Origin: Moorella sp. E308F
GTDB taxonomy: Bacteria; Bacillota; DSM-521; Neomoorellales; Neomoorellaceae
DNA: 64,000 nucleotides
NCBI RefSeq assembly: GCF_006538365.1
Contig: NZ_BJKN01000001.1
Span: 977,424-1,041,423 of the forward strand
Reading direction: 5' to 3'
Part shown: piece by piece, positions 39,310 to 53,349 of the stretch
Position numbering within the stretch: position 1 is the stretch's first letter
Layout: each line of letters starts with the position of its first letter
Program-made: the position numbers and the translations under genes
The notes under the pieces: model-generated
The model's database searches: none
What the model was told of the DNA's origin: nothing
Seen by the model: only the letters and a program-made list of their open reading frames with translations

Positions 39310-42225
39310 ATGGCCACCGATAAAATTGTCATCCAGGGGGCGCGGGCCCATAACCTGAAGAATATCAACGTCACTATCCCCCGGGATAAACTGGTAGTCA
39401 TTACCGGCCTGTCGGGATCGGGGAAGTCTTCCCTGGCCTTTGATACCATTTATGCCGAGGGGCAGCGCCGTTATGTCGAGTCCCTTTCTTCTTATGCCCG
39501 GCAGTTCTTAGGCCAGATGGACAAACCTGACGTTGACTTAATCGAGGGACTCTCCCCGGCCATATCCATCGACCAGAAAACGGCCAGCCATAATCCACGC
39601 TCCACGGTAGGCACGGTGACGGAAATCTACGACTACCTGCGGCTGCTTTTTGCCCATATCGGCCGCGCCCATTGCCCCCGGTGCGGCCGGCCCATTACGC
39701 CCCAGACGGTTTCCCAGATGGTGGACCGTCTCCTGGCTTACCCGGAAGGGACCCGTTTCCAGATAATGGCCCCCATTGTCCGGGGCCGCAAGGGGGAATA
39801 CCGCAACGTCCTGGAGGAGATTCGCAGGCAGGGCTACGTGCGCGTCCGTGTTGATGGCGAGATCCGGGAAACGAGCGAGACTATCAACCTGGCTAAGAAT
39901 AAAAAACATACCATAGAAGTAATCGTGGACCGCCTCCAGGTGCGGCCGGGGGTGGCCACGCGCCTGGCCGAATCCCTGGAAACGGCCTTAAAGCTTGCCG
40001 ATGGTATTGTCCTTATCGATATCGTCGGCCAGGAAGAGCTGCTTTTAAGCGAGAAATTCGCCTGCATCGAGTGCGGCATCAGCCTGCCGGAAATCACGCC
40101 GCGTCTTTTTTCTTTTAATAATCCCTACGGCGCCTGCCCGGCGTGTACCGGCTTGGGTGTAACCATGAAGGTCGATCCCGACCTGGTCCTTCCTGATCGC
40201 GACCTGACCTTAAGGGAAGGGGCCATTGCGCCCTGGAGCCGCAGCAATAACGGCTACCAGCAGATACTGGAGTGCCTGGCCGAACACTACGGTTTCAGCC
40301 TGGACGTGCCCGTGCGGGAGCTCAAGCCGGAGCACCTGCAGGTCATCCTTTACGGCTCCGGGCAGGAGCGGATTAAATTCCGCTACACCAACCGTTTTGG
40401 CGACCGGCGCACTTACGAAGCTCCCTTTGAGGGGGTCATCCCCAATCTCGAGCGGCGCTACCAGGAAACCCAGTCGGAGTGGTCGCGGGCGGAGATTGAA
40501 AACTATATGAGCCAGCAGCCCTGCCCGGCCTGCAAGGGGGCGCGGCTGAAACCGGAAGCCCTGGCCGTCCGGGTGGGGGGGCTTAACATCTGCGAAGTCG
40601 CGGCCCTGAATGTCCGGGCGGCTGCCGGGTTTTTGCGCAGTTTAAATTTAAGCGAACGCGAGGAGATAATCGCCCGCCAGATTTTAAAAGAAATCCTGGC
40701 CCGGCTGCAGTTCTTGCTGGATGTTGGCCTGGACTACCTGACCCTGGACCGGGCGGCGGCCACCCTCTCCGGGGGAGAAGCCCAGCGCATCCGCCTGGCC
40801 ACCCAGATCGGGTCGCAGCTCATGGGGGTCCTGTACATCCTGGACGAGCCCAGCATCGGCCTGCACCAGCGGGACAACGCCCGCCTCATTGCCACCTTGA
40901 AACGCTTGCGGGATCTGGGCAACACGGTCATCGTCGTCGAGCACGACGAGGATACCATGCGGGCCGCCGACTATATCATCGACATCGGTCCCGGGGCCGG
41001 CGAGCAGGGCGGCCGGGTGGTGGCGGCCGGTACCCCGGCAGAGGTAATGGCCAATCCCCGCTCCCTCACCGGCCAGTATTTAAGCGGCCGGCGGCGTATC
41101 CCGGTGCCGGCAAGGCGGCGCCGGCCGGGCGACAAATGGTTGACCGTTAAAGGCGCCCGCGAGCACAACCTGAAAAATATCGACGTCAGCTTTCCCCTGG
41201 GCCTGTTTATCGGCGTTACCGGTGTTTCCGGCTCCGGCAAGAGCACCCTGGTCAACGAGATCCTCTACCGGGCCCTGGCCCAGCGCTTGAACGGTGCCCG
41301 GACTAACCCGGGGGCCTTTGCGGCCATTACCGGCACCGAGCACCTGGACAAGGTCATCGAGGTGGACCAGTCGCCCATCGGCCGGACGCCGCGCTCTAAC
41401 CCGGCCACCTATACCGGTATCTTTGACGATATCCGCGCCCTTTTCGCGGCCACCCCGGAAGCCCGTGCCCGGGGCTACAAACCGGGGCGCTTTAGCTTTA
41501 ATGTCAAGGGCGGCCGCTGCGAGGCCTGCGGCGGCGATGGCATTATAAAGATTGAGATGCATTTTCTGCCCGACGTTTATGTACCCTGTGAAGTCTGCCA
41601 GGGGAAGCGTTATAACCGGGAGACCCTGGCCATAAAATACAAGGGCAAATCCATTGCCGACGTCCTGGCTATGACAGTGGACGAGGCGGCGGAATTCTTT
41701 GCCGCCATTCCCCGCCTGCACCGGCGCCTCGCCACCCTCCAGGACGTGGGCCTGGGCTATATAACCCTGGGCCAACCGGCCACCACCCTTTCCGGCGGGG
41801 AAGCCCAGCGGGTGAAGCTGGCGGCGGAACTGGCCCGGCGCAGCACCGGCCGGACCATGTACATCCTGGACGAGCCCACCACTGGTTTGCACATGGCCGA
41901 CATCGAGCGGTTGCTGAACGTCCTGCAGCGCCTGGTGGATGCCGGCAATACGGTGGTGGTTATCGAGCACAACCTGGATGTCATCAAGTCGGTGGACTAT
42001 ATCATCGACCTGGGCCCCGAGGGCGGCGAGGGCGGCGGCCGGGTGGTGGCCGCCGGCACTCCGGAAGAGGTCTGCCGGGTGGCGGAATCCTATACCGGCC
42101 AGTTCCTGGCCCCTGTCCTGGAGCGGGATAAAGAGAGGCAGGCGGGCCGGGACCTGGAAGGAAGCCCGGAGCACCGGCCTCCGGGCGGGCATCAGGACCT
42201 GCCCCGGGTAGTAGGGCAAGAATAG
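39310..42225 (+). CDS. uvrA: Excinuclease ABC subunit A
   Basis: 971 residues with two ABC modules: Walker [11 protein letters not shown] and [10 protein letters not shown], signatures [12 protein letters not shown] and [12 protein letters not shown], and Walker [12 protein letters not shown] and [10 protein letters not shown]. Cys pairs of the zinc sites are present (CIECG...[14 protein letters not shown]...CEVCQG). UvrA scans DNA and hands lesions to UvrB. ATG 39310 lies 6 bases after GAGGGGG; an in-frame ATG at 39286 lacks a site. A charged tail of about 30 residues extends past the usual end. Confidence 0.98.
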
Positions 42226-42282
42226 TTCAGGAATCATCAAAACTGGGTGGAGCCCCTGCTAGCGAGCGAAGAAAAATGTAGA

Positions 42283-42494
42283 AGGCGTGCTTCTGTTGGG
42301 AGCGAGCGACTTGGCCCGAGTGGTAAAGCGGCCTTGGCGAAGCTGAAGAGCGAGGGCGGGGCCGAGGACAGGATGTCCGAGGCCGGCCTCTGAGGCAAGG
42401 ACGCCGAATAGGCCGGGAACCCCGCCCGAGCCGGAGGCTGAGCCTTAGGCCGCTCCATGAAGGCCACGGAGCGAGCCACAACAGAAGCACGCCT
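42283..42494 (+). other. Highly structured non-coding element between uvrA and uvrC (candidate ncRNA or structured leader)
   Basis: A 16-bp perfect stem closes it (42283-42298 with 42479-42494). Inside, the + strand pairs almost continuously: 42302-42310/42468-42476, 42312-42316/42462-42466, 42327-42334/42447-42454, 42336-42343/42437-42444 and 42354-42361/42420-42427. It then forks into two hairpins (42362-42382 and 42383-42416). At least eight steps are tandem G-A/A-G pairs, for example 42339-42340 with 42440-42441. The opposite strand would have T-C mismatches there, so only the + strand transcript folds well. It has no long reading frame. It ends just before the uvrC ribosome site. Confidence 0.65.
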
Positions 42495-42509
42495 GAAAGA
42501 AGGGATACC

Positions 42510-44351
42510 ATGGACCTGGAGGAGAAACTGGCGCGCCTGCCGGATCACCCCGGCGTCTACCTCATGCGCGACGCCAAAGGCGAGATCATTTATGTCGGCA
42601 AGGCCGCTTCCCTGAAAAACCGGGTGCGCTCCTATTTCCGCGGCCAGCACCCGCCGCGGACGCAGGTCTTAGTCAGCCATATTGCCGACTTTGAATATAT
42701 CCTGACGGATAACGAAGTCGAGGCCCTGATTCTAGAGTGCAACCTGATTAAAGAACACCGGCCGCGGTACAACGTCAGTTTAAAGGACGACAAAAGCTAC
42801 CCTTATATCAAAATTACCACCCAGGAACAGTTTCCCCGGCTGCAGATCACCCGCTCCCTGGTCCGGGACGGCTCCCGCTACTTCGGCCCCTATACCAACG
42901 TGGGGGCTTTGCGGGAAACCTTAAAACTCCTGCGCGGCCTTTTTCCGGTACGCACCTGCCGGGAGACGCCCCTGCAGCACCGCAGCCGGCCCTGCCTCAA
43001 CGCCCATATTAACCGCTGCCTGGCTCCCTGCAGCGGTAAGGTCAGCCCGGAGGCCTACCGGGAAGCGGTTGACAATATTATCCTGTTCCTGGAAGGGAAG
43101 CATACCACCCTGGTAAAGGAATTAAAGGAAAAGATGGAAGCCGCCGCCGAACGACTGGAATTTGAAAAGGCAGCTAGGCTCAGGGACCAGCTGCGGGCGG
43201 TGCAGGAAGTCTGTGCCCGCCAGAAAATTACTGACGCCGGCGGCGATGATGCCGATGCCGTAGCTTTCGCCCGGGAAGGGGAAGCGGCCCTGGGCCTCAT
43301 CTTCTTCAGCCGGGGGGGTAAGGTTATCGGCCGCGACCATTTTTTCCTTACGGGGACAGAGGGCTTATCCCGGGGCGAAATTATGGCAGCCCTGCTGAAA
43401 GAATATTACAGCCGGGGGGTGGAAATTCCGCCGCAAATCCTCCTCCATGACGAACCGGATGACGCCGCCACCATCGCCAGCTGGCTGGGCCGGCTGCGCG
43501 GCGGCCGGGTCGAGTTGAAGGTACCCAAACGGGGCAGCAAGTTAAAGCTTTTGCAGCTGGTCCATGAAAATGCCGTCAGCCTCCTCCAGGAGCACCTCCT
43601 GGCCCGCCAGCGCCAGGAGGAAGGTGGCAAGGCGGCCCTGATGGAACTGCAACAGGCCCTTGGCCTGCCGCGGTTGCCGCGGCGCATGGAAGCCTATGAT
43701 ATTTCCAACTTCCAGGGGAGCAGCCCGGTGGGGGCCATGGCTGTCTTTGTGGACGGCCGGCCGTTGACGTCGGCCTACCGCCGCTTCCAGATCAAGACGG
43801 TCAAAGGCCCCAATGACTTTGCCTCCCTTCAGGAGGTTTTAAGCCGGCGTTTCCGCCGCGCCGCCGGGCAGGACCCGCGTTTTGCCGAGTTGCCTGATTT
43901 CGTCCTGATTGATGGTGGCCTGGGCCAGCTTCACGCCGCCCGGGAGGTGATGGCGGCCATGGGTGTGGCGGCCATTCCCACCTTTGCCCTGGCCAAGGAG
44001 GAGGAACTGCTGTTCCGGGAGGGCAGCCCCGAACCGGTACGCCTGCCCCGGGATAGCCGGGCCCTGCAGCTCTTGCAGCACCTGCGGGATGAGGTGCACC
44101 GCTTTGCCATTACCTACCACCGCCAGAAACGGGAAAAGGGCGCCTACCGCTCGGTGCTGGATGACATTCCCGGCGTAGGTCCCAAACGCAAAAGAGCCCT
44201 GCTGCGCCATTTTGGGTCTGTTACCAGGATAAGCCAGGCAACTTTAGAAGAACTGCTGGCCGTAGAGGGGATGAACCGGGCAGTAGCGGCCCGCATCCTG
44301 GAAGGCCTGGGGAGGAAAAATAATGGGGAGAATCCGGCTGGTAGCCCTTGA
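42510..44351 (+). CDS. uvrC: Excinuclease ABC subunit C
   Basis: 613 residues. N-terminal GIY-YIG nuclease (HPGVYLMRDAKGEIIYVGKA), Cys cluster around CRETPLQHRSRPCLNAHINRC, UVR motif (LKEKMEAAAERLEFEKAARL), an RNase H-like C-terminal nuclease (YDISNFQGS, FVLIDGGLGQL, Asp residues) and a final helix-hairpin-helix (DDIPGVGPKRKRALL). UvrC makes both cuts around a lesion. AAAGAAGGG precedes the ATG, immediately after the structured element. Confidence 0.98.
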   Translation: MDLEEKLARLPDHPGVYLMRDAKGEIIYVGKAASLKNRVRSYFRGQHPPRTQVLVSHIADFEYILTDNEVEALILECNLIKEHRPRYNVSLKDDKSYPYIKITTQEQFPRLQITRSLVRDGSRYFGPYTNVGALRETLKLLRGLFPVRTCRETPLQHRSRPCLNAHINRCLAPCSGKVSPEAYREAVDNIILFLEGKHTTLVKELKEKMEAAAERLEFEKAARLRDQLRAVQEVCARQKITDAGGDDADAVAFAREGEAALGLIFFSRGGKVIGRDHFFLTGTEGLSRGEIMAALLKEYYSRGVEIPPQILLHDEPDDAATIASWLGRLRGGRVELKVPKRGSKLKLLQLVHENAVSLLQEHLLARQRQEEGGKAALMELQQALGLPRLPRRMEAYDISNFQGSSPVGAMAVFVDGRPLTSAYRRFQIKTVKGPNDFASLQEVLSRRFRRAAGQDPRFAELPDFVLIDGGLGQLHAAREVMAAMGVAAIPTFALAKEEELLFREGSPEPVRLPRDSRALQLLQHLRDEVHRFAITYHRQKREKGAYRSVLDDIPGVGPKRKRALLRHFGSVTRISQATLEELLAVEGMNRAVAARILEGLGRKNNGENPAGSP

Positions 44352-49248: not shown

Positions 49249-49789
49249 CGGGCATAACGCCATGGCCACCTGGCGCCAGGTTGCCCCTTTTTGGCGCGTA
49301 GCCTGGAATTTTTTTTGGATTGAACTCAGCCGCTTTTTACCCTTTTTGCGTCTGAAAAACTGGCTATTACGCCACCTGGTGGGGATGGATGTAGCGCCGA
49401 CGGCTGCCATAGGGGTTATGGCCATGCCGGATATCTTAAGGCCGGATCTCATTCATATTGGCCCCGAGAGTATTATTGGTTATAATGTCACTATTCTGAC
49501 CCATGAGTTTTTGCCCCGCGCCTTCCGCCTGGGGGCAGTGGAAATTGGCGCCTGGGTTCTCATTGGCGCCAATGCCACCATTTTACCAGGGGTGCGCATT
49601 GGCGACGGAGCTATTGTCGGAGCCGGAGCGGTAGTTACCCGGGATGTCCCGGCAGGGACCATGGTCGGCGGCGTCCCGGCGCGGGTGATAGGCAGGGTGG
49701 ATGGTGATACCCGGGCATCTCGCCCGGGGCCGCCTTTTTCTCTGGAACAAGACCCTCATGCCGCTAACGCGGCACCATCAGAAGGATGA
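49220..49789 (+). CDS. Hexapeptide-repeat acyltransferase
   Basis: 189 residues. After an N-terminal helical stretch with aromatic residues come left-handed beta-helix repeats ([51 protein letters not shown]) and the end [10 protein letters not shown] of the maltose/galactoside O-acetyltransferase class. It would move an acetyl group from acetyl-CoA to a sugar or cell-wall precursor. The ATG overlaps whiA by 29 bases with GGGGGAGG before it. A structured hairpin begins at its stop codon. Confidence 0.87.
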
Positions 49790-49855
49790 AAATAACGGGC
49801 TGGCATTTGTTTGGAGCGAGCAAAAACAATGCCAGCCTGGAGCGAAGTTATTTTC
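49788..49855 (+). repeat. Two-part hairpin carrying GGAGCGA motifs
   Basis: Outer stem GAAAATAAC (49788-49796) with GTTATTTTC (49847-49855), inner stem GGCTGGCATT (49798-49807) with AATGCCAGCC (49828-49837). TGGAGCGA occurs twice: in the terminal loop and in the bulge between stems. The same motif lies in both strands of the first internal region of the element at 42283-42494, so these may be one repeat family. No T-run follows. Confidence 0.6.
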
Positions 49856-49904
49856 AGGGTAGAAACTGCTCCCTGGAAGGAGATGACCGGTGGGGAGGAA
49901 GACA

Positions 49905-53267: not shown

Positions 53268-53296
53268 GGTGCCAGCCCCTCATGGGGGCTGGCACC
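53268..53296 (+). repeat. Perfect 12-bp hairpin between gapA and pgk
   Basis: GGTGCCAGCCCC (53268-53279) and GGGGCTGGCACC (53285-53296) with a five-base loop and no T-run. The GGTGCC/GGCACC ends are like palindromic repeat elements seen in many bacteria. Confidence 0.65.
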
Positions 53297-53349
53297 CCCG
53301 CCATCGAACCATGAATTGTAGAATATTATTTTCCGAGGAGGTTTGACTG

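Follow-up and report, generated by a model that had tools for sequence, protein, structure and literature searches.

What is the hairpin that separates uvrA from uvrC in Moorella sp. E308F, and why is it there? The window examined here, a 64,000-nt stretch of contig NZ_BJKN01000001.1 (positions 977,424 to 1,041,423, forward strand), carries between these two genes an element at 42283-42494 that the initial annotation described as a branched hairpin of no recognized RNA class, possibly a small RNA, a uvrC leader control element or a mobile hairpin. That interpretation is partly supported. Our analysis shows that the element is one copy of a phylum-wide module, a hairpin of ~210 nt consisting of a GA-stepped rod that ends in a two-hairpin fork. 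The module is mobile, dispersed and structured and has no Rfam listing; it represents a large family of jumping hairpins, so far undescribed, found in dozens of bacterial genera.

The fold drawn in the initial annotation was recovered in full. For the + strand of 42270-42510 the folding energy is -137.6 kcal/mol, compared to a mean of -90.1 for shuffled sequences (z -9.57, with 0 of 200 shuffles as good), and a perfect 16-bp closing stem, formed by a 5' arm at 42283-42298 and a 3' arm at 42479-42494, encloses a core at 42299-42478 made up of the rod and its terminal fork. This core, the sole copy found in the window by covariance model search, matches model R1 at 187.6 bits. About eight tandem G-A steps had been reported, and all eight read GA opposite GA. 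Six of these are 2x2 loops flanked by pairs in the minimum free energy structure, compared to 0.18 such loops on average, and never more than 3, in 300 dinucleotide shuffles, which bears out the view that their regularity is not due to chance. The proposed preference for the + strand also stands: the - strand folds at only -120.2 kcal/mol (z -7.89), and as the GA/GA steps read TC opposite TC on that strand, they are a gain for the + strand only. At the fork, hairpin 1 (42366-42378, GGACAGGATGTCC) displays a CsrA-like loop, C-AGGAT-G, at 42369-42375, and hairpin 2 (42394-42405, GGCAAGGACGCC) displays a second, C-AAGGAC-G, at 42396-42403. The GGA triplets of these loops, at 42371-42373 and 42399-42401 and thus 28 nt apart, each have an unpaired probability of 1.0.

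Searches for further copies answered the question of whether this structure is unique to the locus. No match to the window was found in Rfam 15 at the gathering score, and the best sub-threshold hits under permissive thresholds had E-values of 1.7 or worse, far below gathering scores. BLAST detected copies at 13 places in the organism's own genome and in 17 of 61 relatives, and a core covariance model built from 27 sequences raised these figures to about 17 copies and 29 of 61 relatives. Across the phylum, the model identified carriers in 79 of 398 sampled genomes and 57 of 267 genera, including Moorella stamsii, M. mulderi, M. sulfitireducens, Desulfovirgula thermocuniculi and Desulfofundulus australicus. 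Carrier genomes often possess dozens of copies (in genomes G012, G016 and G020 the count comes close to the limit of 44 scored candidates). Phages and viral contigs that were searched gave no match to the element. Among plasmids, one partial copy of 76% identity was detected on Klebsiella pneumoniae plasmid NZ_CP061968.1 (19562-19691), a record that is perhaps contaminated or misassembled. The literature searched, outside which most subscription papers fell, held no description of repeat elements of Moorella or Desulfotomaculum, or of any linked to CsrA.

The structure is conserved across the family while its sequence changes. RNAalifold assigned 40 pairs to the 27 aligned cores, 28 of them with changes on both sides. 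In a test of this structure, 93.3% of cells were paired, double changes occurred in 133 cells and covariation scored 0.358. Shuffles reached at most 37.9 +/- 5 double-change cells and a score of 0.128 +/- 0.010, with 0 of 500 as high, and structures slid along the alignment collapsed, though this last comparison is somewhat inflated by the derivation of the structure from the same alignment. These cells are not independent, as the copies are paralogues. The closing stem shows the greatest sequence variation of all parts and nevertheless keeps its pairing. In a set of 39 copies less than 80% similar to one another, 111 of the 2x2 internal loops are flanked by Watson-Crick pairs; GA/GA accounts for 89 of these and TC/CT for a single one, indicating that the GA regularity is a family trait confined to one strand.

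The locus itself might suggest a control element specific to uvrC, as the hairpin, in sense orientation, immediately precedes the uvrC Shine-Dalgarno sequence. This possibility, raised by the initial annotation, is contradicted by sites that lack the element. In six other Moorella (G001, G003, G004, G005, G007 and G008) the gap between uvrA and uvrC is about a dozen nt, including the same uvrC Shine-Dalgarno, and no element is present. Elsewhere, copies adjoin dozens of unrelated genes in both orientations, and we consider a uvrC-specific role scarcely credible. Besides our organism, G010 carries the element at this site, in a copy with an internal deletion and a T-A to G-C double change in the closing stem (GGCGTGC/GCACGCC to GGCGGGC/GCCCGCC). 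G002 has a different palindromic insert in the same place, which belongs to a second family of long palindromic repeats (L039, L156, L159 and L162, about 240-505) with ends GTGGGGATATGTCCC...GGGACATATCCCCAC, a fold of -143 kcal/mol and GA-rich steps of its own.

The insert at this site is larger than was originally reported, as it begins at about 42249. The segment 42249-42278 (GGAGCCCCT...GCTAGCGAGCGAAGAAAAATG), which is not present at the empty uvrA-uvrC sites, aligns to the left end of an IS110-like (type A) copy, L062, with a score of 36.5 (shuffle maximum 28.5, 0 of 2000 as high). This left-end remnant is retained and the right end is gone. The shortened left end and the lost right end mark the uvrA-uvrC insert as an old, trimmed copy.

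How such copies move can be read from their intact ends, and here the suggestion of a mobile hairpin is borne out by dispersed copies, empty sites and target duplications. Most copies in Moorella lie between two conserved ends, in one of two layouts. Type A reads AGGAG / CC..CATGGCGG...CCGCCACCAGCGAGGGCATGAAAATGCC [core] GCCTGCGATAGAGTTATTTTCGGAGGAG, where the bar after AGGAG marks the left element boundary, and type B reads AAGA / CCCTCATGCCGCTAACGCGGCACCATCAGAAGGATGAAAATAAC [core] GGAGAGAAGTTATTTTCAGGGT / AGA, where the bars mark both boundaries. Empty and filled sites agree with these boundaries, with a clean pair at grpE-dnaK (type B) and a further pair at the L106 site (type A). Both types share their ends with insertion sequence (IS) elements of the IS110 family, which encode a DEDD transposase. 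In G008, an IS110-family element (PF01548, PF02371) is present in nine identical copies, all nine at AGGAG with a TTTCGGAGGAG right end; type A has the AGGAG target and the TTTCGGAGGAG right end in common with it, and 3 of 2000 shuffles scored as high as the type A end match. An IS110 of G003, 55% identical to that of G008, has type B ends, and no shuffle of 2000 matched its left-end score. These IS110-type ends leave merely a short AGA or AGGAG repeat and no longer target duplication. In genomes other than Moorella, the same core also occurs within two other kinds of ends: terminal inverted repeats GGTGCWTCCGAAA with 8-bp target-site duplications, in a Clostridia metagenome-assembled genome (G012) and in G018, and terminal inverted repeats CTGGCGTATCCCC, which G016 and G018 have with duplications of 9 bp. 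A search for an autonomous partner of the 8-bp type in G012, based on the terminal-repeat pattern, returned element-sized or roughly 100-bp pairs and no pair of 1-2.5 kb. Two candidate identities were rejected. The core is not the bridge RNA of IS110, as the left-end region of the G008 IS110 has a different sequence and folds differently, and the core is also found within ends not of IS110 type. A Y1/RAYT mobilizer, as in REP/RAYT and IS200/IS605 systems, was discarded because PF01797 was not found in carriers G001, G002, G003, G010 and G019-G022.

The ends can also be found without the core. Two 97-bp core-less elements in G012 (L356, L357) are bounded by perfect 8-bp duplications, and core-less remnants at grpE-dnaK in G000 and G003 fit a deletion between GGAGCGAGC direct repeats that flank the core. 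The window holds two further cases. At 49753-49860 (+ strand) lies a type B element reduced to left end, closing stem and right end, the left end being 100% identical over 56 nt to that of type B; its core was apparently lost by deletion between GGAGCGAGC repeats, and M. stamsii (G001, L089) has a full-core copy at the same flank. At 53276-53341 (+ strand), between gap and pgk and directly upstream of pgk, an IS110-A-like left end, which matches that of the G008 IS110 at 85% over 40 nt, adjoins a right end, TATTTTCCGAGGAGG, with no core. Since core-less forms exist, transposition does not need the core, and the core is cargo, common to unrelated mobile elements. In being short, dispersed and free of open reading frames (ORFs), with ends shared with an IS, target duplications and empty orthologous sites, the element resembles miniature inverted-repeat transposable elements; unlike these, one folded core, with its own covarying structure and loop motif, occupies at least three unrelated kinds of ends. 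Likewise, two Moorella IS110s have ends matching types A and B and the same short target without a long duplication, but the bridge RNA region of such elements (PF01548/PF02371) is distinct from the core, and the hairpin element itself encodes no transposase.

Several copies of the core show secondary changes. A third small hairpin element (AGCACTCAAC...GTTGAGTGCT) is nested in several (L006, L007, L065-L071), and nested elements disrupt some of them. Local block replacements resembling template switching recur inside the core (L098, L111, L093 and similar copies), with GAGCGAGGGC replaced by GATGATAAGC and ACAGGATGTCCGAGGCC by ACAGCGAGGCCTTCGGCC. Upstream of copy L105 (G003, C22:189494), the flank resembles by eye an FMN riboswitch region ahead of a ribD-like start.

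If the core is cargo, what does it carry? One proposal starts from the fork. In both fork-tip hairpins C-A(N)GGAN-G is retained although the stems differ in sequence and length (GGACAGGATGTCC, GGGCATGGATGCCC, GGCCATGGACGGCC, GCGACAGGAGGTCGC, GGAAACAGGACGTTTCC), and GGA is present in 58 of 75 fork loops, compared to a mean of 15.8 and a maximum of 26 when the loop letters are shuffled. Sites for CsrA/RsmE are described as an ANGGAX hexaloop on a C-G pair or an AGGAX pentaloop (PMC4005645), and CsrB sites as CAGGA(U/A/C)G, with RUACARGGAUGU as the consensus obtained by systematic evolution of ligands by exponential enrichment (SELEX) (PMC7652899). The fork loops of the element, A(N)GGAX on a C-G pair, have this form. 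CsrA genes were detected in 73 of the 79 carriers, compared to 211 of the 319 genomes without the element (Fisher p 7e-7, with genome size, lifestyle and phylogeny uncontrolled). Within the organism's own family (f1), the element is present in 13 of 14 genomes with CsrA and in none of four without (p 0.0016), the one CsrA-positive genome lacking it being 58% complete. Loop sequence and gene co-occurrence together suggest that the fork loops may bind CsrA.

As the best explanation of the whole, we propose a CsrA-capturing mobile hairpin, a reading that we hold to be probable by a modest degree. The module spreads as the cargo of non-autonomous elements, with IS110-family ends in Moorella; at the present locus, a type A element landed immediately before the uvrC Shine-Dalgarno and has been stripped of most of its ends over time. 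If transcribed as part of the host mRNA, the rod would present a pair of C-A(N)GGAN-G loops at a spacing of 28 nt, and we infer that this pair should capture one CsrA dimer. CsrA might then be soaked up if many copies are expressed, or be tethered near the next Shine-Dalgarno. The GA steps may keep the rod rigid while interrupting a long perfect double strand, both in RNA, where RNase III would act, and in DNA, where palindromes are unstable. The broader proposal, that one CsrA-capturing RNA travels as mobile cargo in at least three unrelated end types through dozens of genera and forms a distributed CsrA sponge in Gram-positives, is offered tentatively, as a possibility we think rather doubtful. 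In the literature consulted on it, the CsrA titrator of Gram-positive bacteria is the protein FliW and not an RNA.

Transcription from a promoter of its own would make the element an independent trans-acting small RNA. The self-contained fold, the strong covariation and an indifference to host-gene orientation favor this part of the initial annotation, and both the covariation and the loop conservation were found. Neither a sigma-70-like promoter nor a terminator was seen within 42150-42600, however, and copies that point the same way as both neighboring genes are somewhat in excess (28, against 12 opposed and 21 mixed), a weak signal based on a crude ORF call. We regard an independent small RNA as highly unlikely. 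The C-A(N)GGAN-G hairpin loops are like those of the titrating RNAs CsrB, CsrC, RsmX, RsmY and RsmZ; unlike these, the element has two sites per unit, placed where a long GA-stepped rod forks, and is multi-copy, mobile and often located in operons, with no promoter or terminator seen and no Rfam match.

A number of observations weigh against a CsrA-capturing RNA. An RNA fold under selection is expected to show G-U mismatches in excess of A-C on the + strand, so the lack of a clear bias counts against RNA: there is no such excess across the family (12 G-U, 14 A-C) and no clear bias among orthologous copies (30 and 21). Orthologous residents are weakly constrained. Their substitution rate is 0.059 in pairs versus 0.113 at other unpaired sites (p 0.0014), the GA steps, at 0.105, show no detectable constraint against that 0.113, and the reduction in the GGA loops, to 0.056, is non-significant (p 0.07 versus other sites). 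The core has been inverted in place between species, within the same flanks, at lepA-hemN (L083 versus L093), at the site shared by L073 and L101, at leuC (L076 versus L085) and in L220 versus L221, and inversion can also be read from the flanks in G104 versus G138; the loops would thereby be lost from the sense mRNA. Six carriers (G021, G121, G155, G198, G323 and G364), all drafts of at least 90 contigs, have no CsrA match, a seventh (G022) has only a weak one, and the association of CsrA with the element is uncorrected for phylogeny. SELEX also favored short stems, whereas the fork hairpins of the element are stable. The weak constraint on residents and the inversions suggest that selection acts mainly on active lineages and not on every resident copy.

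An alternative is a selfish repeat without host function, whose structure and loops would be kept only because working copies propagate, whether by means of the transposase or because the insert is tolerated, and whose closing stems would be kept perfect by palindrome template switching. Resident orthologues diverge about as expected for their insertion age and show little constraint, core deletion and in-place inversion are tolerated, and some copies are broken by nested elements. However, as core-less forms transpose, transposition alone fails to explain a core and loop motif retained across three end types, and template switching would erase the GA mismatches, not keep them. We judge a purely selfish repeat unlikely.

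The strand bias could instead arise in DNA, if the + strand folded while single-stranded at replication or transposition, given that sheared GA pairs are stable in DNA as well and would bias one strand. The missing G-U excess is as expected for DNA, and the orientation at a site is free to flip. Against this stand a known RNA-protein motif kept by both fork loops across 57 genera, the action on double-stranded DNA of DDE-type ends with duplications of 8-9 bp, and the many carriers without a Y1 transposase; a single-stranded DNA element thus appears rather improbable. The element shares with REP/BIME, ERIC and other intergenic palindromes its intergenic, palindromic and multi-copy nature but is larger and branched, with tandem GA steps, several transposase-type ends and no tie to RAYT (Y1).

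In conclusion, structures so large, widespread (57 of 267 sampled genera) and backed by covariation are seldom missing from Rfam. If the fork loops of the preferred CsrA-capturing hairpin do bind CsrA, transposons would be spreading the target sites of a global RNA regulator among Clostridia-type genomes. Mobile DNA would thereby be tied to post-transcriptional control in bacteria for which the literature searched reports no CsrB-like RNA. Even without CsrA binding, one folded cargo in IS110-type, 8-bp and 9-bp duplication elements represents an unusual exchange of cargo between unrelated elements, and its presence in three end types provides a clear test case for why such a core is kept.
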